A stretch of DNA of 64,000 nt from positions 1 through 64,000 of the forward strand of contig JAIQFS010000043.1 of assembly GCA_020073145.1 (NCBI GenBank), given 5' to 3'. Each line of letters opens with the position of its first letter. Within the stretch, counting starts at the first letter, position 1. A program made the position numbers and the translations under genes. Source of the DNA: Terriglobia bacterium (lineage in GTDB: Bacteria; Acidobacteriota; Terriglobia; Bryobacterales; Bryobacteraceae). The notes beneath the pieces were generated by a model that saw nothing but the letters and a program-made list of their open reading frames with translations, was not told the origin of the DNA and ran no database searches. Positions 7,780-23,106 of the stretch are shown here, in pieces.

Positions 7780-10700
7780 CTAGAACAACAGTTTCAGGCT
7801 GAACTGCGTTTGCCGCGCGGCGCCGGCAATCCCCGGAACCGCCAGGGAGGTGATTTGACCGGCGGTCGGGCTCAGCGTGCCCTGGTAATTGGTCTGGGCC
7901 GACCCGGCGTTGAACACTCCCGTTGCCGGGAAGTTGAAGTTCGCATGATTGAAGATATTGAACAGCTCGGCGCGGAACTGCAGGTTGAGCCGTTCGTTGA
8001 TCTTCGTGCTCTTCATGACTCCGATGTCGGTGTTCACGAAGCCCGGCCCGATCAAGGCGTTTCGTCCCATGTTGCCGACGGTGCCATACGCCGAAGAAGT
8101 GAAGCACGCGGGGTTGTACCACCGGTGCACGTTCTGGTTCGCGTAGACGTTGCAGCCGCCAACCACGTTGGGACGGGGGTTGTCGAAGTTGTTGCCCAAA
8201 TCCGCCTGGTCGCCCTCGCCCAGCGAGAACGGAACACCGGTATGCCACGCCTGAATCCCGGTCACCTGCCAGCCTTCCTTCAGCCGGTTGCCCTTGAAGG
8301 GAAACATGTAGACCACGTTGCCGGAAAGGTTCTGGCGCAGGTCGTAGCTGCAAGGTCCGACGTCACTGTTCCAATTGTAGGGATTGGTATTGGCGGACGA
8401 CACGTTGTTGAAGCCCAGGCCGCCATAGGTGTACGCGCTGTCGATGCAGTGCGACCAGGTATAGGAGAGCTGGCCCACAAAACTGGACGAAAGCCGGTGC
8501 TGCAGACCAATCTGCAGCGCATTGTAGTGCGAATGGCTGGTGGTGTCCGTCATATCCAGCGCGCCGAAGGCCGGACTCGGCCGGGGATTCTGGTCCATGA
8601 CCGGCGTTCCAAACGCGGTTGTCGCCACCGGGTCGGGATGCGCGAACGACATGACGCCGTTCGTGATGGTCGGGGTGGGAGCGTTGAAATCGTGGAAGGC
8701 CAGGAGGTGAACTCCTTGGCTGCCGACGTAGCCCACCGTCAGCAACGTATTCTTGGGCAGTTCCCGCTGGATGTTGAGAGAGTATTCGATGGTATACGGG
8801 GTGGTGTGAACCCCGTAATAGGTTCCGTTGGTCAGACTCAGCAGCGGAGTGCCGCCGCCCACGAACGGCACCGGCCAACTGGGATCGTTGTTGAAGAAAA
8901 ACTGGTTCGTCGTATTGTACGGCGGATTGGTGAGGTATGCGGACGAGAATGTGTACGTCTGGAACACGTCGTGGAAAATACCGAAGCCGGCACGGATGGA
9001 AGTCTTGTGGTCTCCCTTCACATCCCACGCCAGCCCGACCCGCGGATCCAGGTTATGGATCGAAGGATTGCTGGTATAGGCATGCGACACGTTCTGGAAG
9101 GCCGTTCCAAAGGGCGGCCCAACGGCGTTATAGAAGTTGTTGTGAGTCTCGATCGGGTTGGATTCAAAACCGTAGCGCAGCCCGAGATTCAGGGTCAGCC
9201 GGTTGCTGATCTTCCAATCGTCCTGAATGTAGGGTTCCAGCGAAATCAGGCGTTCGGCGCGATAGGTATTGGTTCCGCCGTTGGGCGCGCCGGTGAACGA
9301 AAGGGGATTGCCACTCAGAAAATTCGGCAGGCTGGTGAAGATATAGAAACCGTTCCAATACGTATACGCGTACGGATTGAGTTGTTCGCGCCGGAAGGCA
9401 GCGCCGACGCTGAGGGTGTGAGCCCCTTTGATCCAGGTCAGGTCGTCCTTTTCGGTGAACTTGTTCTGCAGATAATGGAATGGGTTGATGAACGAAGAGC
9501 CGAGCGGTGCGATGCCGTTCGGCAGGGCGATGTAGGCATCCTGCCGCGCCGGGGTGAACAGTTCCAGCGGCGCATGCTGGGTCGGCTGGGTCTCTCCGGT
9601 GATCGGACGCGAATAGGAAGAGGTGAACTGGTTCGTCACGGTCGGCGAGAAGATGTGGCTTTCGCCCACGGTCAAGAAGTTGTTATGGGTGACATCGTAT
9701 GTGGGCCAGAGGCCAATTCCGGCGAAGTTGGTGCGAGTCCCGTAATCGATCTGCCACCGGGCAAACATCGAATCTTTGGCGGAGATAGTCCAATCGACGC
9801 GGGCGAGGCCGAAGTTCTCCGGCGAAGTCTGAGCGCCCACATAGTTGTAAAGGCCGATATCGGGACTGATGGAGGGTCCGTTCGGAAGCGGATAGAGCGC
9901 CAGCATCGCCGCCGAGGCCGGATTCACCGCGTACTGCTGGCCGCCGACGATGCCCTGGTGCACGGCGGCGCTGGGGACGAAGTTCGGGTACGTCGTATCC
10001 AGCACCTGCTGGATGCCTTCATAGTTGACGAAGAAGAAAACCTTATCCTTCCTGATGGGGCCGCCGAGACTGCCGCCGAACTGGTTTCTGCGGAAGGGGG
10101 GAGGGGAACCGCCGTCGAAGAAGCCGCGCGCGTCCATGGCGCTGTTGCGGAAGAATTCATAGGCCGAACCGTGAACTGCATTGGTGCCGGATTTGCTGAC
10201 GGCGTTGATGGCTCCCCCATTGCCGCCATACTGGGCGCCGTAGGTGCCGGTGAGAGTCTGGAATTCGGCGATGGACTCGATCCCGAGCGAAGTGCCGGTC
10301 ACGTCGCCACCGGCGTTGCGCTGCCACCAGTTCAGCATCGATTCGCCATCCAGCATGTTGGCGTAGCCTTCCGGCCGGGTGCCGGAGATGGAATAAGCCG
10401 GCGCCACCGAAGTCAGCGCGCTGCTGCCTCCTGCCGGGTAGGACGCCACGCCGGGCGCCAGCAGAATCAGTTGCTCGAAATCGCGGCCGTTGAGCGGCAA
10501 CTCGCGCATTTGCGTCTGATTCACGAGCGCAGACACCGCCGAGTTGGTGGTCTCCACCTGAGCTGCGTTGGCTTCCACGGTGACCGTTTCCTGGGTCTGT
10601 CCGAGGGAGAGTTGAAGATCCAAGACTGGCGCGCTTCCGACCGTGAGAATGAGCCCTGACCGCACTGCCGTCTGAAATCCGGTTTTCGACACGCGTACTT

Positions 10701-10944
10701 CATACGTCCCAATCCCCAGATCGGGAACGCTGTAACGCCCTTGGGATTCGCTCACGACGGTCCTCGCAGTTCCGGTGCCGGTGTTCCGGATCTCGATGAC
10801 TGCTCCGGGAACCGCAGCCCCGGATGTATCCGTGACCGTCCCGGAAATGCTGGCCGTCGCTGCCTGTCCAAACAGGCGGCCCGTGCTCATCAGCCCGGCG
10901 ACCAGACACACAAGACTGAGCAATCCGACTTTCTTTGTTGTCAT
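7780..10944 (-). CDS. TonB-dependent receptor, Oar-like, with N-terminal carboxypeptidase-regulatory domain
   Basis: A 1054-residue outer-membrane protein. It has a signal peptide (LLSLVCLVAGLMSTGRLFGQ), then a carboxypeptidase-regulatory-like Ig domain (SGTVTDTSGAAVPGAVIEI, about 35-115), a plug domain (ELPLNGRDFEQLILLAPGV at about 148-166), and a long beta-barrel ending in the aromatic terminus FSLKLLF expected for BAM insertion. This architecture is the Oar-like receptor family that is greatly expanded in Acidobacteriota; the substrate cannot be read from sequence, though large oligosaccharides or peptides are usual guesses. The TonB protein at 33111-34103 could energise it. It stands alone, 395 bases after the tRNA/purD unit in its own direction. 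Confidence 0.9.
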   Translation of the reverse strand: MTTKKVGLLSLVCLVAGLMSTGRLFGQAATASISGTVTDTSGAAVPGAVIEIRNTGTGTARTVVSESQGRYSVPDLGIGTYEVRVSKTGFQTAVRSGLILTVGSAPVLDLQLSLGQTQETVTVEANAAQVETTNSAVSALVNQTQMRELPLNGRDFEQLILLAPGVASYPAGGSSALTSVAPAYSISGTRPEGYANMLDGESMLNWWQRNAGGDVTGTSLGIESIAEFQTLTGTYGAQYGGNGGAINAVSKSGTNAVHGSAYEFFRNSAMDARGFFDGGSPPPFRRNQFGGSLGGPIRKDKVFFFVNYEGIQQVLDTTYPNFVPSAAVHQGIVGGQQYAVNPASAAMLALYPLPNGPSISPDIGLYNYVGAQTSPENFGLARVDWTISAKDSMFARWQIDYGTRTNFAGIGLWPTYDVTHNNFLTVGESHIFSPTVTNQFTSSYSRPITGETQPTQHAPLELFTPARQDAYIALPNGIAPLGSSFINPFHYLQNKFTEKDDLTWIKGAHTLSVGAAFRREQLNPYAYTYWNGFYIFTSLPNFLSGNPLSFTGAPNGGTNTYRAERLISLEPYIQDDWKISNRLTLNLGLRYGFESNPIETHNNFYNAVGPPFGTAFQNVSHAYTSNPSIHNLDPRVGLAWDVKGDHKTSIRAGFGIFHDVFQTYTFSSAYLTNPPYNTTNQFFFNNDPSWPVPFVGGGTPLLSLTNGTYYGVHTTPYTIEYSLNIQRELPKNTLLTVGYVGSQGVHLLAFHDFNAPTPTITNGVMSFAHPDPVATTAFGTPVMDQNPRPSPAFGALDMTDTTSHSHYNALQIGLQHRLSSSFVGQLSYTWSHCIDSAYTYGGLGFNNVSSANTNPYNWNSDVGPCSYDLRQNLSGNVVYMFPFKGNRLKEGWQVTGIQAWHTGVPFSLGEGDQADLGNNFDNPRPNVVGGCNVYANQNVHRWYNPACFTSSAYGTVGNMGRNALIGPGFVNTDIGVMKSTKINERLNLQFRAELFNIFNHANFNFPATGVFNAGSAQTNYQGTLSPTAGQITSLAVPGIAGAARQTQFSLKLLF

Positions 10945-12608: not shown

Positions 12609-12618
12609 TACAATGATA
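12609..12618. promoter_or_regulatory. Overlapping divergent -10 elements between purD and mnmG
   Basis: TACAAT at 12609-12614 on the plus strand ends seven bases before the mnmG ATG at 12622. TATCAT on the minus strand (12618-12613) ends eleven bases before the purD ATG at 12601. The hexamers share two bases. If both are used, the two messages start at or within a few bases of their start codons, and the two polymerases would exclude each other. The -35 boxes would lie inside the opposite genes and are not obvious. The evidence is position and sequence only. Confidence 0.45.
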
Positions 12619-12621
12619 GCA

Positions 12622-14410
<1,789 letters not shown>

Positions 14411-14421
<11 letters not shown>

Positions 14422-14998
14422 GTTGCTCCGCCAGAAGTTGGCGGGAATCCTGGAGCTGACGGAGGCACAGATCCAAGCCGTGGAAGCCCACTACCATTTG
14501 ATGGTGCGCTGGAACCGGGTTCTAAATTTGACTGCGGTCGATTCTCAGGAAGAAGCCGTCGAGCGGCACTTCTGCGAGTCGTTGTTCCTGGCCGCGCACC
14601 TTCCGGAGGGCCCGTTTCGGATCGCCGACGTTGGTTCGGGTGCGGGATTTCCGGGAATTCCGGTTGCCATTGCCCGTCCGGATTGCTCGGTAACCCTGAT
14701 CGAGTCTCATCAGCGAAAGGCGGTATTTCTTCGGGAGGCCACGCGAGGCCTGCCTAACGTCCAGGTGAGGGCGGAGCGGGCAGAAGAAGTAGCCGAGCAC
14801 TTCGAATGTGTCGTCTCCCGCGCCGTGAGCTATCAGGACTTGGTGCCGGTCCTATCGAAGCTGGCTGATTCCGCCGATCTGCTGACTGGCGCAGAAGCGC
14901 CTCCCGCCTTGTTGGGTTTTCAATGGAAAGCGCCGATCCCGCTACCCTGGGGGAAGAATCGGTTCTTAAGAATCAGTGTTTCACGTGAAACTCGATAA
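14411..14998 (+). CDS. rsmG: 16S rRNA (guanine-527 N7) methyltransferase
   Basis: A 195-residue SAM-dependent methyltransferase that modifies G527 of 16S rRNA. The SAM motif [20 protein letters not shown] is clear at about residues 73-92, and NRVLNLTAV near the N-terminus is typical. It begins at a GTG (14411) inside the end of mnmG, so translation is coupled. Its 3' end contains a parS site read as SVSRET, meaning the centromere sequence is also protein-coding. It is a little shorter than E. coli RsmG (207). Confidence 0.93.
14977..14992. promoter_or_regulatory. parS site 1 (inside the rsmG 3' end)
   Basis: TGTTTCACGTGAAACT matches the bacterial parS consensus TGTTTCACGTGAAACA at 15 of 16 positions; only the last base differs. 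ParB is expected to load here as the centromere of the chromosome. Two copies within 42 bases, directly before parA, is strong support. Confidence 0.93.
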
Positions 14999-15002
14999 CC
15001 GT

Positions 15003-15018
15003 TGTTTCACGTGAAACA
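15003..15018. promoter_or_regulatory. parS site 2 (upstream of parA)
   Basis: TGTTTCACGTGAAACA is a perfect 16-base match to the parS consensus. It covers the position where a -35 box for parA would lie (a -10-like TAGTAT sits at 15030-15035), so ParB bound here could also repress parAB. Confidence 0.96.
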
Positions 15019-15041
15019 TTAACCCGTGGTAGTATTGCCGC

Positions 15042-15833
15042 TTGGGCCGCGTATTTGCGATTACGAACCAGAAGGGCGGGGTGGGCAAGACGACCACCGC
15101 GATCAATCTGGCTGCTTCTTTGGCCGCGAGCGAGTTTAAGGTCCTGGTCATCGATTCCGACCCGCAAGGCAATGCTACCAGTGGGCTAGGCGTCGAAAAA
15201 AGGCCCGACCGACCCAGCCTGTACCACGTTCTACTGGGGGATGTGCCGGCCCGGGACGCCGTGCTTCCCACCGAACTCGAAGGCCTGAGTCTCATCCCCG
15301 CCGACAAGAACCTGGTCGGTGCTAACCTCGAACTGGTCGAAATCCCGAATCGGGAATACCGTCTGCGGGAACGCATCCAGGAGCTCCGCGACGACTATCG
15401 GTTCGTGCTGATTGACTGCCCCCCCGCTCTCGACCTGCTGACTCTGAACGCCCTCGTCGCCGCCGACGCGGTTCTGGTCCCGATCCAGTGTGAATTCTTT
15501 GCCTTAGAGGGCATTTCGGAGCTCATGGACACCATCTCCCGCGTCCGCGAATCGTTCCAGCATCCGCTGCAAGTGGAAGGGATCCTCCTCACGATGTTTG
15601 ACGACCGCACGAACTTGGCCCGCCAAGTCGCCAATGATCTCAAGGAGTTCTTTGGAGACGAGGTGTTTAAAACCGTGATTCCGCGGAGTATTCGACTGGC
15701 GGAGGCGCCCAGTTTCGGTAAGCCCATTCTCACCTACGATCCCCGCTCCCGAGGCGCCGAAAGCTACATCAAACTCGCAAAAGAGATCTTGGATCATGAA
15801 CAAAACCGACAATCCGCGCAAAGCGCTCGGTAG
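15042..15833 (+). CDS. parA: Chromosome-partitioning ATPase ParA (Soj)
   Basis: A 263-residue deviant Walker ATPase: KGGVGKTT (Walker A with the signature lysine) at residues 11-18, DSDPQGN at about 40, and VLIDCPP as Walker B. It forms DNA-bound dimers that pull ParB-parS complexes apart. A stop codon lies four codons upstream, and TTG at 15042 is the only possible start; there is no Shine-Dalgarno, and TAGTAT ends six bases before it. Its end overlaps parB by 38 bases. Short length and position identify it as the chromosomal type. Confidence 0.96.
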   Translation: MGRVFAITNQKGGVGKTTTAINLAASLAASEFKVLVIDSDPQGNATSGLGVEKRPDRPSLYHVLLGDVPARDAVLPTELEGLSLIPADKNLVGANLELVEIPNREYRLRERIQELRDDYRFVLIDCPPALDLLTLNALVAADAVLVPIQCEFFALEGISELMDTISRVRESFQHPLQVEGILLTMFDDRTNLARQVANDLKEFFGDEVFKTVIPRSIRLAEAPSFGKPILTYDPRSRGAESYIKLAKEILDHEQNRQSAQSAR

Positions 15834-16677
15834 GGGACTCGGGGCGCTGCTTCCCACGCGGCCGCCGACGCAACCCGTGCCTGCGATGGAAGAGAATACT
15901 CAGTCGATTCCGATTGATTCCATTGATCCGAACCCCCTGCAGCCCCGTCGCACCTTCCAGCCGGAGCGACTAGAGGAGTTGGCCCAGTCCATTCGCGCCA
16001 ACGGCATCATCCAGCCGCTCGTAGTGCGCCGAGAAGGGCTGCGTTATCAATTAGTTGCCGGTGAGAGACGATGGCGCGCCGCCAAACTGGCGGGGGTGGC
16101 GCAGGTTCCCGTCGTGGTTCGCGAAATCCCCGACGACCGCCTGCTGGAAATCACCCTCATCGAAAACATTCAGCGCGAGGACCTCAACCCCATCGAAACC
16201 GCCGTGGCTTTCGAACGGATGATGCGGGAATTGGTGCTGAACCCGGAGCAGGTGGGCCAGCGGACTGGCAAAGACCGCACCACGATTATCAATCTCATCC
16301 GCCTGCTGCAGCTTCCCGACGACCTGCAGCAATTGGTGGCCGAGCGCCGGATCAGCGCCGGTCATGCCCGCTGCCTTCTGTCTCTGCCCACCATTCAGCT
16401 CCAGCGCGAACTGGCCGAAAAAGCCGTCGCGCAGGGCTGGTCGGTGCGGCAAGTCGAGCGGACCGCGCAGAAGATGCTGGAGGGCCGCAAGCCCAAGCAT
16501 GTCGATGAGGTCGACACGGACCCCAACGTCAAAGCCGCCATTCAGGAGATGGAGCGGGTGCTCGGGACCCGCGTGCGGATCATCGAGAAAGCCAAACAAA
16601 AAGGCCGGATCGAAATTGAGTTTTATTCGAACGATGACCTGGACCGGATTTATACCGCCATCGTCGGGGAAGAGTAA
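15796..16677 (+). CDS. parB: Chromosome-partitioning protein ParB (Spo0J)
   Basis: A 293-residue parS-binding protein. KALGRGLGALLP at the N-terminus is the usual ParA-interacting motif. The ParB/Srx CTPase domain follows with QPLVVRREG and GERRWRAAKLA (the conserved box C/GERR motif). ENIQREDLNP then leads into a helix-turn-helix (HARCLLSLP region), and a C-terminal dimerisation domain ends the protein. The start overlaps parA by 38 bases. It converges with the MerR-type gene, with two bases between the stops. Confidence 0.96.
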   Translation: MNKTDNPRKALGRGLGALLPTRPPTQPVPAMEENTQSIPIDSIDPNPLQPRRTFQPERLEELAQSIRANGIIQPLVVRREGLRYQLVAGERRWRAAKLAGVAQVPVVVREIPDDRLLEITLIENIQREDLNPIETAVAFERMMRELVLNPEQVGQRTGKDRTTIINLIRLLQLPDDLQQLVAERRISAGHARCLLSLPTIQLQRELAEKAVAQGWSVRQVERTAQKMLEGRKPKHVDEVDTDPNVKAAIQEMERVLGTRVRIIEKAKQKGRIEIEFYSNDDLDRIYTAIVGEE

Positions 16678-17090: not shown

Positions 17091-19088
17091 TCACTCGGTG
17101 AAGACGGCAACGGTGTGCCGGCCGCGCGGCAACAAGAGCGTGAAGGGGCCGGCCCGCCCGGCCTGGTGGGCGCCATCCACCTGGGCGCCATCTACCTGGA
17201 TGCGGCGCGGAGGGCGATCCAACACCGCGATCGCGCGCGGGGCGCTCTGATAGGTGAATTCGATAGCGGACTCGTAGAGGACGCGGGCGGTCTGCAACTC
17301 TGCATTGAGGCGCAACAGGCGTGGGCCGGCTGGGTGCGGGTCCGGTTCGACGGTGTGCCGGCCGGCGGGAAGCCACGCGGTCTCGTCATCCGCCACGGGC
17401 CAGGGCTGGCCATCCACCAGGGCGGCGCCGGTCCAAGGCAGACCGACTCCGCGCGCCGAATCGACCGTGGTCTTCGCGCCGAGACGTTCGATGTGAGCCA
17501 CTGCGGCAGCGGCCGAGGGCAGCAGCTCCAGATCGGGCGGCGATAACGCGTGTTCGAAATAAAGCGCGGTCCGCTGGAAATGCGCAGTCGCCTGGCGAAC
17601 CAGTTGCAGCAGCTCGGTGCCGACCTGCTGCTTGGTGGGATACACATCCTGGTAGCGCTCGACGATGTTCAGGTCGAGCGCCAGTTGCTCGCGATGCGGC
17701 GTCAGCGCGCCGTAACGCTCAGCAAGGACCTGGAAGCGGAGCGGACCCAGATCCCACAGGGTGGCCGGCTCTTCGATCAGGAACGTGAAGGCGTGCCGGT
17801 CCAGCAGCGGAAGGACCCGCGCCGCATCGGCCCCGATGGCGTCCCGCATTTCCGGATCCAGCCGGTCATCGACGTGGGTCAGCACCAGATCGAGATCCGG
17901 TTTCTGTGCGCGGACCGATTCCAGAACGGCCATCCACTCTTCCTGCATCTTCCCCGCCAGCCGGCTCCGGAAATCGAGGAAGGCCCGCTGAGACTGCGGA
18001 TCGTTCCGCGCGGCGAAGAGCTCGATCGGGTCGAACCCGTGCTGCGCGCGAAACGCGGCCCGCACATCGCCGTTCATGGGGGTAAAGCGCGACGGGTTGC
18101 CGATGCCTTCCAGCGATTCGAAATACAGCTCCGCCAGATTCGCTCCATCCCAATCGAAGCGCCCGAGCAAGCCGCGCACGCCGGCAGACACGGCGTGAAA
18201 GCAATCGCGGTTGGTCAGGTTCATGAGCTTGCGCCAGTCGAGCTGGGCATCCTGGAGCAGGGCGGTCTGCTCGCGCCATTCGGGGTGATCCATCCAGAAC
18301 TGCTCGCTGACGTGCGGCAACTCGAGCCACGCGTAGACCAGGATGCCCTCGCGGTGACACACTGCGATGAGTTTCGCCAGGTAGGCGTCGCGCTCGGCAT
18401 CGGGCTCGTAAAAATGCCACGCGGCGACGTGCAAAGCCGCGATCCCGGCCTTGCGCCAGCGGACGGCAAAATAATCCAGGTCGACTCGTGAACGGTAGGA
18501 GGAATCGAAGAAGGCCCACAGCCGCGACGAGCGGAACGGCGGCTCCAGTCCCAAATCGCACAACGCCGCTAGCAGGAAAGGAAACCGCTCGTAGCCGCGG
18601 TCGCCCGGAGAGGCCGCCACCCACAGCACGGCGCCGGCGCCGCGGTGCAGTCCCGCGACCAGCGGAGCTCCGGACCAACGCTCGCGCGTGAACACCCGCG
18701 CGCCTTCCGGAAGAACGAACACCGGCAGATTGAGGGCCTTCTCCCACACGATCGGCAGCTTCGGCCGGCGCTCCTCGATGAGGCTTGCGACCCTCACAGT
18801 TCCCGCTCCGGGCTGAAAGCCCAACTGGCCGGCTAGCGGAGACTGACCTTCGAGGATCAGGATGGCGCCCTGGTCCACGCGCAGGATCCAATCTTCTCGG
18901 GCCGGCGCTCCGGCTCGAGCCACCAGAACGTGGGCGCGGTCCGGCGGCTGGGCTTCGAATCCGATGGCAGAGAGGATCTCCGGCCAAGCGCCGGCTTCGC
19001 CTGAAACCACGCTAAAGTACGGCAACTCGCCGCCGCGGGCGGCGCCGCACGCCAGCATCAAGCTGACGGCGCTAGTGAGTAAACGCAT
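17091..19088 (-). CDS. Secreted multidomain protein with a glycosidase-like TIM-barrel region
   Basis: A 665-residue protein with a signal peptide (MRLLTSAVSLMLACGAARG). I see three regions. Residues about 20-190 form an alpha/beta domain reminiscent of a glutamine-amidotransferase-like fold. Residues about 195-500 look like a hypothetical glycoside-hydrolase TIM barrel (RLWAFFDSSYRSRVDLDYFA, ILVYAWLELP, WDGANLAELYFESLEG). A C-terminal beta-rich part carries two copies of an AGRHTVE/RGRHTVA-type PEGA-like end. The likely role is processing or binding a polysaccharide, by analogy with the PgaB C-terminal domain; that is inference. I start at 19088; its start overlaps the upstream TPR gene by 17 bases, so the two are co-translated. 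The catalytic acids cannot be assigned with confidence. Confidence 0.7.
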   Translation of the reverse strand: MRLLTSAVSLMLACGAARGGELPYFSVVSGEAGAWPEILSAIGFEAQPPDRAHVLVARAGAPAREDWILRVDQGAILILEGQSPLAGQLGFQPGAGTVRVASLIEERRPKLPIVWEKALNLPVFVLPEGARVFTRERWSGAPLVAGLHRGAGAVLWVAASPGDRGYERFPFLLAALCDLGLEPPFRSSRLWAFFDSSYRSRVDLDYFAVRWRKAGIAALHVAAWHFYEPDAERDAYLAKLIAVCHREGILVYAWLELPHVSEQFWMDHPEWREQTALLQDAQLDWRKLMNLTNRDCFHAVSAGVRGLLGRFDWDGANLAELYFESLEGIGNPSRFTPMNGDVRAAFRAQHGFDPIELFAARNDPQSQRAFLDFRSRLAGKMQEEWMAVLESVRAQKPDLDLVLTHVDDRLDPEMRDAIGADAARVLPLLDRHAFTFLIEEPATLWDLGPLRFQVLAERYGALTPHREQLALDLNIVERYQDVYPTKQQVGTELLQLVRQATAHFQRTALYFEHALSPPDLELLPSAAAAVAHIERLGAKTTVDSARGVGLPWTGAALVDGQPWPVADDETAWLPAGRHTVEPDPHPAGPRLLRLNAELQTARVLYESAIEFTYQSAPRAIAVLDRPPRRIQVDGAQVDGAHQAGRAGPFTLLLPRGRHTVAVFTE

Positions 19089-21051
19089 ACCACATCCCCA
19101 CGCGCAGGTCGCGAAAGGCGGCCTGCGGATAGCTGGCATGAATCAAATAGGCGCCGCGCAACCAGTCGACCGTGACAAACACCGACCGCGGCAGCACCGG
19201 TGGACGAAAGCGGATTCCAGGGCCCCATTCTACGAAATTGGCCCAACCCTGCCGTTTGGCGTCCACGGTCACGTTGGCGTTCGCATAAACCTGGGCCCGT
19301 AGCGCCGGCGGACCCGCCGTGTATCCGAAACGGGTTTGCTGGTAGCCTAGAAAGTCATTGCCGAAACGGCTCAGAAACACGCCATCGGTGGTGGAGGCGA
19401 GGAACCACCCTGAGGATTCGCCGCCCAACGCCGCGCCCACCCCGCGGGTGACCGAAATGCCGCCGCGATAGTCGGGTAGCAGATGGCCGGTGACGTAACT
19501 CATGGCCGAGCCCGCTTCGGCCCAGCCTGTGATCCCGTGCCACGGCACGGTCGCTACGCCAACTGCCAGGATGAAGGAGCTTTCCGAGAGATACTGCGGG
19601 GCGGCGACTCCCGTGCTGACCCTGGTGTCGCCGATGAACCGCAGGCTGACGTACGGGCGAAGCGGGATGCCCAGGCGCACGTCGGTCTTGAGCTGCCCAT
19701 AGGAAAAGAAATCGTGCCAACGGGTGGAGAACACGGGCAACAGCCAGACCGTGGTCCGGAATCGCGCCGTGGCGCCGCGCAAGTTGTGCCAAGCTCGCGC
19801 GGCCTCGCGGGCAATCCGCGGGTCGGCGCTGCGGCGCGCGAGATCGAACCAGCGCTCAGCCCGTGTATCCTGATGCAGCATGTTGGATACCTGGCCGAGC
19901 TGGAGCGTCAAGGTGTCGTCGGCGGGTTCCGCCTCGTGGGCGATCTCCAGATATTTCAAGGCATCCGGCAGATAGCCGGCCTGGAGGCTGCGCTCGGCCA
20001 TGACCTTGGCATCGACGTCGGCGGGCTTCGCCTCGGTGCGCGGCCCGAGCGGAGCAGGACCGTGGAGTACGGTCCGCACGCGCCCGGCAAGTTCCTCATC
20101 CGGACCGGCCAGGACGCGGTCGAAGAACGGCTGCGCCGCGGCATCATCGCCACGCGCGTGGAGCAGAAAGGCGAGTTGAGCGGCGGAGAGCAGGTCGCCC
20201 GGCGGCGTTTCCGCCAGCAGCCGGAATTCGGGTTCAGCGTCGAGCGGCCGGTCCATGCGCAGCAACAGGTAGGCCAGCTCGCGGCGCAGCTCGACGCTGG
20301 CGGGATCGAGCTGGAGAGCACGCCGGAATTCGTCGACGTACGGGTAGCGGTCGGGAAGCAGCTCCCGCGCCCGTTCGGCGGCGCGCATTTCCCCGCCGCG
20401 CGATGCGGCCAGCAGCGCGGCGTCGGCGTCGGATCCGGGGGGAGATCCGCGGTTGAGTTGCTTCCAGACACGGCCGAGGTCGAGCAGCACGGAGCGGCGG
20501 GCGGGCAGGATCCGCCAGGCCTTCTCATAGTGCTCGGCCGCTAACGCAAGGTCGTCGCGCTGTTCGGCGAGTGTCGCCAGCTCGAAGTGCGCGCTGAAAT
20601 TGTCAGGTCCGCGAGCCAGCGCTTCCTGCCAGCGGGCGATTCCTGCAACCAGAGGCTCATCGATATTCCGGAACGCTTGCTCGGCGGTGGCGTTTCCCTC
20701 CCGGCGCAGGCGGTCGAAGATGCGCCGGGCTTGCGCCTGTTCTTTGGCTTCGTAACAAAGGAAAGCGTACTCGAGGGCCACCGCGGTGTCGTCGGGGTCC
20801 AGGCGGAGCGCTTCGCGAAACTGGTCTCGGGCGCGCTCGTTTTCGCCGATCTTGAGATAGGTATAGGCTAGGTCTTTGCGGATCGCGGAGCGCGCCGGCG
20901 CCGCCTCGATGGCCGTCAGGAAACCGGCGACGGCAGTGTCATAGTCGCGGACGCGCAGCGCGTCGTAGGCGCGCGCCAGCGGCTCATAGGCGGGATCGGG
21001 CGCCTGGGCGCAGGCGCAGGTTATGGCGGCGAAGAGTATGGCGACACGCAT
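19072..21051 (-). CDS. TPR protein with a C-terminal outer-membrane beta-barrel (NfrA/PgaA-like)
   Basis: A 659-residue secreted protein (signal MRVAILFAAITCACA). Residues about 25-410 are TPR repeats (for example AIRKDLAYTYLKIGENERAR and REALRLDPDDTAVALEYA). The last ~230 residues are beta-rich with alternating aromatic strands (VWLLPVFSTRWHDFF onward), resembling the C-terminal barrel of NfrA, PgaA, PelB and BcsC proteins that export exopolysaccharide. I start at the ATG at 21051, which gives a clean signal peptide; an upstream in-frame start at 21078 exists. The downstream gene overlaps it. No polysaccharide synthase is adjacent, so the partner is elsewhere or the pair does something different. 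Confidence 0.75.
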   Translation of the reverse strand: MRVAILFAAITCACAQAPDPAYEPLARAYDALRVRDYDTAVAGFLTAIEAAPARSAIRKDLAYTYLKIGENERARDQFREALRLDPDDTAVALEYAFLCYEAKEQAQARRIFDRLRREGNATAEQAFRNIDEPLVAGIARWQEALARGPDNFSAHFELATLAEQRDDLALAAEHYEKAWRILPARRSVLLDLGRVWKQLNRGSPPGSDADAALLAASRGGEMRAAERARELLPDRYPYVDEFRRALQLDPASVELRRELAYLLLRMDRPLDAEPEFRLLAETPPGDLLSAAQLAFLLHARGDDAAAQPFFDRVLAGPDEELAGRVRTVLHGPAPLGPRTEAKPADVDAKVMAERSLQAGYLPDALKYLEIAHEAEPADDTLTLQLGQVSNMLHQDTRAERWFDLARRSADPRIAREAARAWHNLRGATARFRTTVWLLPVFSTRWHDFFSYGQLKTDVRLGIPLRPYVSLRFIGDTRVSTGVAAPQYLSESSFILAVGVATVPWHGITGWAEAGSAMSYVTGHLLPDYRGGISVTRGVGAALGGESSGWFLASTTDGVFLSRFGNDFLGYQQTRFGYTAGPPALRAQVYANANVTVDAKRQGWANFVEWGPGIRFRPPVLPRSVFVTVDWLRGAYLIHASYPQAAFRDLRVGMWYAFTH

Positions 21052-21276
21052 AGCCCGACACACGGATAGTACGACCAAGCGGGTCGATTCTCATCGGATT
21101 TTGAAGCCGACAACCGGCGGAAGTTCACTCACGACTGTGCGCCAGTTTCGTCGAGCAATTGGCCGGCTCTCGACTCCAACGTGTACCCAAAGAGGCAATC
21201 ACTGCGGAGGCAGACGCGCCTCCAGGGACCAATCGGCAAAATAACGCGCTTCGAACTCTCGGCTTACACCGTCACC

Positions 21277-23106
21277 TCACCGCTTCCGCATCGGAACCCA
21301 AGAGGGTGCACCCTCTTCGGTCGAGTTATCGGTCAGCAGACGAACGTTCGAGCCGTCCGCACGCATGACGGCGATCTCTCCATAGGGCTGGAAGGTCAGA
21401 CCGGCGGGAGAAGCCAACAGCAGGTGGATCGCTTCATCCTTGAATCCCTGCTGCCCCGTCGCGAAGGCAATCCATTCCCCATCGGGAGAGAAACTGGAAT
21501 GAGCGTTCTTGCCCGGCGCATGAGTCAGACGTTGCAGGCCGGATCCATCCGGCCGGATCCTGTAAATCTCATAATCGCCGTCCCGCTTACTGGTGAAAGC
21601 GATCCAGTCGCCGCGGGGCGACCAATCGGGGAATACATCGTATTCCGAACCGGTCTCCAGTTTCCGGCTTTTGCCCGTCGCCAGGTCCAGAATGTGCAAA
21701 CCCCGCACCGGACCCTTCGTCACACGATAGGCCACCTGTTTGCCGTCAGGCGACCAACTCGGCGATCCGCTATTTTCATCGGCCGCTGTGAGGGCCGTCA
21801 TACTGGACCCATCGGGACGAATGCTCATCAATTGCGCCGGCTTGATCGTCTCCCTTTGATAAAGCCCTCCCAGGGTAAACAGGATGACGTCGCCCACCGG
21901 AGACCACATCGGCAACATCATGTCATCGGTAGCCGGACCCTCAAAGATCACCCGATGATCGGAACCGTCCGGACGCGCCACAACGATCGAGCCGCTCCGG
22001 GACGCGCCATTCAGGGTGCCCTCCTGGTAGACCATCCGGTCTCCGCTGGGAGAAAAGGAAGCAGGATAGGGGAAACGCCGCAAAACGAACGACGGGTCCC
22101 TGCCCGGCCACGGGCGAACCATATAGTCGCGATCCGCGCTCACCTCCACCTCGCGATGAAAGATCATGGTGCGGCCGTCGGGCGACCAATCCGGCGCCTC
22201 GAAGTCGCCCGCGAGTTTAACCCCGCCGGTGTAGGTAAGGCCGGTGCTAGTCTGGTACGCGATCTCGTTCGAATCCACGTAGCGTGGAAAGACTTTCAGC
22301 CCCCCGCCGTCCGTAATTGTCTTTCGCGAGCCCGTCTTCCAATCCACTGAGACGATCTGGCTCAGGCCGTTGCCGAAAATCAAGCCGCCTTTGCAGACCT
22401 GGTCCAGAGCAGCGGTGTAGAAAATGAGGCGGGATCCATCCGGTGACCAGTGTGGGGTTCCCGTCAACTCGGAGGAATCGGTGATTCCGCGCAAACCCGA
22501 ACCATCCGGATGCACAACGTAAATACGGGTGAATTGCGGGGTTACAAAGGGCGCAGGACCGGGCGCGGTCGTGGCCGGACACTCTTTGATCCGGGGATCC
22601 CGATCCGAAGAGAAGGCAATCCATTGTCCGTCCGGAGACCATGCGGGCCTGAAATCTCCGGCCGGATGATTGGTAAGGTTGCGCAGTTTGTGCGTCGCGA
22701 GATCGAGAACCCAGATGTCCGCCTGCCCGCTCCGGCTCGATACGAACGCAAGGCTCTTCCCGTCGGGCGAGAGCGCCCCCTGGTCGTCAAAGGCGGGATC
22801 ATCGGTCAGCCGCTCGAGCTGCGATCCGTCCGCATGGACCCGATAAATGTCCGCGGAGCCGGCGCGATGCGACGTGAAAACGATCCATCGTCCATCCGGA
22901 GAAAAGGTCGCATTGTAATCCAGCGCGGAGTTGGGTACGAGCGGGCGCGGGTTACTGCCGTCTCGCGCAGCTATAAAGATGTCCGTGTTGTACGGCGCGT
23001 AACTCTTGATCGCGATGGTATATTTGGCGGCGCTATTGCCTTGGGCTGCCGCAACCACACAACATAAAAGCGGTAGGTGAAGTAAGCCGAATCGTGAACA
23101 GCCCAT
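21277..23106 (-). CDS. TolB-like beta-propeller (PD40/WD40-like) secreted protein
   Basis: A 609-residue protein with a probable signal peptide. It is built from about ten repeats of the pattern SPDG-(R/K/Q)-x-(I/L)-x-F-x-S-x-R with DI(Y/W), for example FSPDGRWIVFTSHRAGS and WSPDGQWIAFSSDRD. That is the TolB C-terminal propeller fold. Probably periplasmic and used for protein binding, but there is no TolB N-terminal domain and no Tol/Pal gene nearby, so it is not TolB itself. It is preceded by an 180-base spacer and stands alone. Confidence 0.85.
   Translation of the reverse strand: MGCSRFGLLHLPLLCCVVAAAQGNSAAKYTIAIKSYAPYNTDIFIAARDGSNPRPLVPNSALDYNATFSPDGRWIVFTSHRAGSADIYRVHADGSQLERLTDDPAFDDQGALSPDGKSLAFVSSRSGQADIWVLDLATHKLRNLTNHPAGDFRPAWSPDGQWIAFSSDRDPRIKECPATTAPGPAPFVTPQFTRIYVVHPDGSGLRGITDSSELTGTPHWSPDGSRLIFYTAALDQVCKGGLIFGNGLSQIVSVDWKTGSRKTITDGGGLKVFPRYVDSNEIAYQTSTGLTYTGGVKLAGDFEAPDWSPDGRTMIFHREVEVSADRDYMVRPWPGRDPSFVLRRFPYPASFSPSGDRMVYQEGTLNGASRSGSIVVARPDGSDHRVIFEGPATDDMMLPMWSPVGDVILFTLGGLYQRETIKPAQLMSIRPDGSSMTALTAADENSGSPSWSPDGKQVAYRVTKGPVRGLHILDLATGKSRKLETGSEYDVFPDWSPRGDWIAFTSKRDGDYEIYRIRPDGSGLQRLTHAPGKNAHSSFSPDGEWIAFATGQQGFKDEAIHLLLASPAGLTFQPYGEIAVMRADGSNVRLLTDNSTEEGAPSWVPMRKR

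Follow-up and report, generated by a model that had tools for sequence, protein, structure and literature searches.

Comparison with described exopolysaccharide systems

In Escherichia coli, NfrB, NfrA and YbcH together with WecB make up the N4 glycan receptor system, the product of which was given as still uncharacterised in the papers of 2021, and NfrB was reported mainly from gamma- and betaproteobacteria in the survey of that year (PMC8669469, PMC8669472); the string "Acidobacter" is absent from the main text of that survey. The 64,000-nt stretch of Bryobacteraceae DNA analysed here (hereafter the window; contig C26 of a 6.3-Mb source genome in 88 contigs) harbors two overlapping genes, one encoding a tetratricopeptide repeat (TPR) protein with a predicted C-terminal outer-membrane barrel and the other a secreted, PgaB-like protein with a predicted glycosidase-like TIM barrel. 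This pair probably constitutes the periplasmic and outer-membrane half of a split, synthase-dependent Nfr-type exopolysaccharide system, a reading supported by gene structure, predicted folds, conservation, co-occurrence with an NfrB-like synthase, and synthase linkage in remote relatives.

The order wecB-nfrB-nfrA-DUF4434 forms an operon in Thalassospira and Zymomonas, the stretch seen in Pseudoalteromonas carries genes for a glycosyltransferase, an NfrA-matching protein and a DUF4434 protein and no wecB, and E. coli YbcH is a DUF4434 protein (296 aa), so that a second protein beside nfrA belongs to the known plan. DUF4434 is itself a relative of TIM-barrel glycosidases. Like the Nfr system, the source genome encodes an NfrB-type synthase, a UDP-GlcNAc 2-epimerase, and a TPR-plus-barrel outer-membrane protein whose gene adjoins that of a second secreted protein, and most of the aligned NfrB-like synthases match MshEN, the C-terminal c-di-GMP domain of the NfrB family (16 of 22 at E<=0.01, E. 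coli included). However, unlike the Nfr genes, those of the source genome are spread over unlinked loci with nfrB not adjacent, the barrel lacks an NfrA_C match, the MshEN region is shortened, and the second protein is PgaB-like and more than twice as long as YbcH. PelB is a TPR-barrel exporter that works with the hydrolase PelA, and the pair shares this combination, PelA being the sixth-ranked Foldseek match of the second protein, whereas the deacetylase domain is unmatched here and no other Pel gene was found among the window genes scanned. The pair also resembles PgaA-PgaB, a TPR-barrel exporter with a periplasmic hydrolase of the same (predicted) fold, in which the TPRs of PgaA reportedly bind the polymer and make PgaB more active (PMC5933820, PMC9384988), but it differs in that the N-terminal deacetylase was not found, Glu stands at the catalytic-Asp position, hhalign shows no sequence homology, and no PgaC-type synthase is adjacent.

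Gene structure and conservation of the pair

The TPR/barrel gene occupies positions 19072..21051 on the minus strand (ATG at 21051, stop ending at 19072) and encodes 659 aa with a signal peptide recognisable by eye; an alternative TTG start at 21078 would yield a protein of 668 aa. The gene for the hydrolase-like protein lies at 17091..19088 on the same strand (ATG at 19088, 665 aa), and an in-frame upstream ATG at 19139 would extend the product to 682 aa, the form that residue numbers follow below. An earlier note, made from the letters alone, had described both reading frames and their 17-base overlap (19072..19088, minus strand), and direct reading of the sequence confirmed all of them. The source genome has a single copy of the hydrolase-like gene, and a sampling of 200 genomes of the family found the gene in 187 (133 of the 140 of good quality); a search of plasmid records gave no match. 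The TPR gene lies upstream on the same strand in the 119 loci with both genes (hydrolase match of at least 400 bits, some genomes counted twice), where the spacing between the TPR stop and the equivalent start has a median of -17 nt and falls within 60 nt of zero in 99. The retention of the 17-nt overlap across relatives suggests translational coupling of the two genes. Nine further loci gave no TPR match, seven of them with no more than 1.2 kb of sequence upstream and two (L022, L058) with room for the gene. No other clear gene family recurs beside the pair in more than 14 of 80 loci, in a survey with flanks of varying length, after by-eye removal of frames antisense to the pair.

Predicted folds and the candidate active site

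The AlphaFold model of the TPR/barrel protein (mean predicted local distance difference test, pLDDT, 90.5; predicted TM score, pTM, 0.49) comprises TPR helices at residues 22-428 (19768..20988, minus strand), which Pfam TPR families also match, and 12 long strands at residues 431-658 (19078..19761, minus strand), a predicted barrel to which no Pfam family was matched. Because pTM is 0.49, the placement of the two domains relative to each other in the model is uncertain. The protein has the architecture of NfrA, namely a signal peptide (by eye), TPRs and a predicted C-terminal outer-membrane barrel. In hhalign, TPRs and barrel together aligned with NfrA at E 5e-5 and a probability of 67%, a match explicable by the repeats and not claimed as homology, and the PgaA control gave E 0.56; against the single E. 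coli NfrA sequence there were weak matches only, over 84 TPR columns (probability 19%) and 16 barrel columns (3%). The barrel profile matched no PDB sequence, and in a fold search with the whole model the match lists were filled by TPRs.

For the hydrolase-like protein, the model (34-sequence alignment, pLDDT 87.7, pTM 0.88) contains an alpha/beta N-terminal domain (residues 40-200, 18540..19022), a TIM barrel (residues 203-546, 17502..18533) and a beta-rich C-terminal region (residues 547-682, 17094..17501), all on the minus strand. The best structural match in VIA-align is the hydrolase domain of E. coli PgaB (4p7l; Z 27.2 over 318 residues at 3.5 A), with GH42 enzymes ranking below it (Z about 24), whereas Foldseek places GH66 dextranases first, PelA sixth (in an alignment of low TM, 0.31 / 0.27) and PgaB fifteenth. 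Glycoside hydrolases are therefore the top structural matches, and the three features on which the earlier note had made its proposal depend, a C-terminal barrel, a glycosidase fold and synteny of the pair elsewhere, were all found, the first two as predictions and the third in the 119 loci. At E<=0.1, Pfam GHL6 is matched by 37 of 56 members of the hydrolase family and GHL10 by 34; the protein of the window itself has no Pfam match at this threshold, a deacetylase domain included, and DUF4434 (PF14488) is matched by 0 of the 56. Weak matches at the same threshold involve DUF4350 (4/56) and the GH42 trimerisation domain (2/56), at positions unchecked in these members; in the fused relatives described below, such matches sit just before the hydrolase part. 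The family profile produced weak matches only against PDB sequences (best E 0.013), and no DUF2334 gene was found in the source genome.

Conserved acids of the TIM barrel comprise D212, E273, D331, E337, E341, D424, E456, D489 and E529, with D331 and E529 kept in 56 of 56 members and D212, E273, E337 and D489 in 55. These near-invariant acidic residues suggest an active site. An alignment by eye of the PgaB motif FDGILFHDD with WDGANLAEL of the window protein places E337 at the position of the PgaB catalytic Asp, which is D474 in B. bronchiseptica (PMC5933820). In this by-eye alignment the catalytic Asp of PgaB and GH153 is replaced by Glu.

Co-occurrence with an NfrB-like synthase encoded elsewhere

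The earlier observation that no synthase adjoins the pair holds locally: no glycosyltransferase was found among the ten window open reading frames scanned, and none of the 27 glycosyltransferase family 2 (GT2; PF13641) places of the genome lies on contig C26. It does not hold for the genome as a whole, which encodes an NfrB-like GT2 of 533 aa on another contig (G000:C28:23556-25154, minus strand) that is 34% identical to E. coli NfrB over 541 aa (E 3e-83); none of the other GT2 stretches matches NfrB at E<=1e-3, in a comparison covering 26 of the 27 places wholly or partly. The protein has a Pfam GT2 match and keeps the DAED/TED/QxxRW motifs, with D154/E156/D157, T249/E250/D251 and Q294/R297/W298 invariant in alignment A6, and two MshEN-like repeats are visible by eye. 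This protein (L162:8554-10155) stops within the MshEN-like region, and many relatives reach about 580-650 aa. In genome G070, a second, longer NfrB-like copy (L209:7557-9836) shows several MshEN-like repeats by eye. The synthase gene is flanked in the source genome by genes for a GAF/ANTAR protein and a GNAT-like protein, and the only clusters shared by more than 4 of 21 synthase stretches are the synthase itself and a frame antisense to it. In addition, the source genome has two UDP-GlcNAc 2-epimerase genes.

Co-occurrence was assessed in a sample of 100 genomes of the order (80 of f1, 2 of f2 and 18 of f3; hydrolase at E<=1e-5, synthase at E<=1e-60), the barrel being searched for in 26 chosen genomes. 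The hydrolase was found in 82 genomes and the synthase in 84; 82 genomes have both, two the synthase only, 16 neither and none the hydrolase only. Hydrolase, barrel and synthase occur together in three of the 18 f3 genomes (G207, G212, G216) and are all missing from the other 15, and within genus g82 of f3 one genome has all three genes and two have none. Fisher tests that ignore relatedness gave p 0.0012 for f3 and p 1e-16 for all 100 genomes. Both the hydrolase and the synthase are present in two copies in G070. Trees of the two proteins (19 pairs from 18 genomes) share the f3 trio and several other clades, and their distances correlate at r 0.66, a value reached in 0 of 2000 permutations, with the pairing of the G070 copies being arbitrary; such agreement would also arise from vertical descent alone and was not counted as proof. 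The pair and the synthase lie less than 20 kb apart only in G178 and G193 (12-13 kb, same contig). Among the possibilities raised in the earlier note, a minimal export and processing module or an NfrA-like unit, export and processing with NfrA-like logic is the best supported, but the module is probably neither minimal nor synthase-free, as an NfrB-like synthase tracks the pair across the order.

Remote relatives of the barrel and the hydrolase

In a sample of 297 genomes of the phylum, with at most nine candidates scored per genome, the barrel profile matched five genomes, three of the family and two others (G509 and G421). In both of these genomes from outside the order, the barrel gene lies directly upstream of a GT2 gene (loci L160 and L161), whose products are 39% (471 aa, E 8e-104) and 37% (602 aa, E 6e-109) identical to E. 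coli NfrB, respectively. The G421 synthase is a single open reading frame of 1114 aa (L161:10582-13926) in which the NfrB-like GT2 is fused to a UDP-GlcNAc 2-epimerase, and the epimerase part of this fusion shares 47% identity with the epimerase encoded on contig C21 of the source genome. The arrangement in these two genomes recalls nfrB-nfrA-wecB, and the natural NfrB-WecB fusion supports UDP-ManNAc (N-acetylmannosamine) as the substrate. The synthase linkage that the earlier note had proposed to seek in relatives exists beside these two barrels, but was not found in the flanks of the family loci weighed below.

Hydrolase matches were found in 12 of the 297 genomes, seven of them inside frames of 1,293-1,659 aa, and the order itself has two further fusions, which are paralogues (G162, G200). 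DUF2334 precedes the hydrolase part in all nine fused loci, and a GT2 gene lies downstream in eight: as the next gene in the seven loci L147-L153, and behind an intervening beta-propeller gene in L127; L128 ends at a contig edge. Five of the nine stretches also carry a UDP-GlcNAc 2-epimerase gene, which in L147, L149, L150 and L153 sits immediately upstream and in L152 lies on the opposite strand at a distance of about 2 kb; L128, L148 and L151 are short or cut. DUF2334 fusions with a second GT2 family, often accompanied by an epimerase gene, are a candidate for a separate exopolysaccharide system of Acidobacteriota. The stretches concerned are L147:5385-12201, L149:8589-14886, L150:6441-12741, L152:7216-15738 and L153:4985-12490, together with L127, L128, L148 and L151; the L153 fusion carries an extra N-terminal GHL6 region.

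Proposed pathway and alternative explanations

By analogy with Nfr (PMC8669469, PMC8669472) and PgaA-PgaB (PMC9384988), the NfrB-like GT2 encoded on contig C28 would polymerise an N-acetylhexosamine chain and move it across the inner membrane, with UDP-ManNAc from the C21-encoded UDP-GlcNAc 2-epimerase as the likeliest substrate. The polymer would be received and guided by the TPR superhelix, which would also serve as the scaffold of the hydrolase; periplasmic trimming would fall to this PgaB-like hydrolase, and release to the 12-strand barrel. In this scheme we infer the physical partnership, the substrate, the hydrolase activity and the direction of transport. The epimerase links suggest that the exported polymer is possibly a ManNAc polymer. 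The system is a variant of the Nfr kind rather than a member in all its parts, because MshEN is incomplete, the NfrA_C comparison failed, and the hydrolase lacks the PgaB catalytic Asp and deacetylase and is not DUF4434.

Several observations weigh against assigning the pair to a split Nfr-type system. The source genome's NfrB-like protein has no Pfam MshEN match at E<=0.1 and ends inside the MshEN region, and NfrA_C (PF13283), which E. coli NfrA matches, is matched at E<=1 by 0 of 43 barrels, in a scan with HMMER filters that discard most weak matches. Homology of the barrel to NfrA barrels is not claimed (hhalign, barrel only, E 0.098, probability 0.6%), and hhalign gave no significant alignment of the hydrolase with YbcH or PgaB. 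No match at E<=1e-20 to an NfrB-like GT2, a fusion-type GT2 or the epimerase lies in the flanks (up to 10 kb) of 80 family loci, and on the records of the one-contig genomes G099 and G144 about 1.8 and 3.0 Mb separate the pair from the synthase. The synthase occurs without hydrolase or barrel in G139 and G192, G110 has two hydrolases and one synthase match, and G112, from outside the 100-genome sample, has a hydrolase match without a barrel. The co-occurrence counts are uncorrected for relatedness, and the GT2s beside the DUF2334 fusions form one family distinct from the NfrB homologues.

This last point bears on a rather improbable alternative, in which the pair exports and trims the polymer of another GT2 of the genome, for example one related to the synthases that neighbour the DUF2334 fusions. 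With 27 PF13641 matches the genome offers many candidates, and the fused relatives of the hydrolase adjoin that non-NfrB family, whose nearest equivalents here are the GT2s of L166 and L164 (about 26-29% identity). However, the L166 synthase, the genome's own equivalent used as a control, is found in only seven of the 100 genomes (0 in f2 or f3; at most 14 candidates scored per genome) compared with 82 for the hydrolase, the control covering L166 alone; and outside the order, the only barrel relatives found adjoin NfrB-type synthases. The lack of a GT2 on contig C26, the tested synthases missing from all 80 family flanks, and the two genomes holding the synthase without the pair would fit a stand-alone unit, either a surface receptor or an outer-membrane channel and glycosidase for the capture or degradation of external polysaccharide, but this is very improbable given that, in the order sample, none of the 82 genomes with the hydrolase lacks the NfrB-like synthase, and that the TPR-plus-barrel architecture is of the exporter type and the fold of the PgaB type. 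The TIM-barrel protein is unlikely to be a non-catalytic, polymer-binding scaffold, a possibility otherwise compatible with a split Nfr-type system: the Glu at the PgaB catalytic-Asp position in the by-eye alignment speaks for it, whereas the many near-invariant acids speak against it.

A broader proposal, which we advance tentatively and with less than even confidence, is that Bryobacteraceae possess a near-universal, previously unrecognised surface polysaccharide, plausibly a ManNAc polymer, made by a split Nfr-type machine in which an NfrB synthase is paired with a barrel of another family, and a PgaB-like hydrolase replaces DUF4434. Searches of the open-access literature found nothing joining NfrB with Acidobacteria, Bryobacteraceae with exopolysaccharide glycosyltransferase, or DUF4434 or DUF2334 with exopolysaccharide, and for NfrA with Acidobacteriota only heavy-metal metagenomics turned up. 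If the pair does belong to a split Nfr-type system, the cyclic di-GMP-linked Nfr pathway, reported mainly from Proteobacteria, would also be nearly a core trait in one of the major groups of soil bacteria. Such a split would also mean that synthase and exporter need no linkage and that the place of DUF4434 is open to another protein family, and it would provide a testable partner prediction and a candidate surface glycan, possibly a phage receptor, for Acidobacteriota.

Neighbouring genes

Downstream of the pair and convergent to it, positions 12613-16677 (plus strand) of the window carry parB, a gene at the parA position, rsmG/gidB and mnmG/gidA, an origin-like neighbourhood. This parAB/mnmG adjacency does not extend beyond near relatives and a few other genomes and was rejected as functional evidence. 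Two further genes lie near the pair on the minus strand, one at 7780-10944 encoding a large carboxypeptidase-regulatory-like/TonB-type outer-membrane barrel protein (OMP_b-brl_4) and the other at 21277-23106 encoding a PD40 beta-propeller protein.

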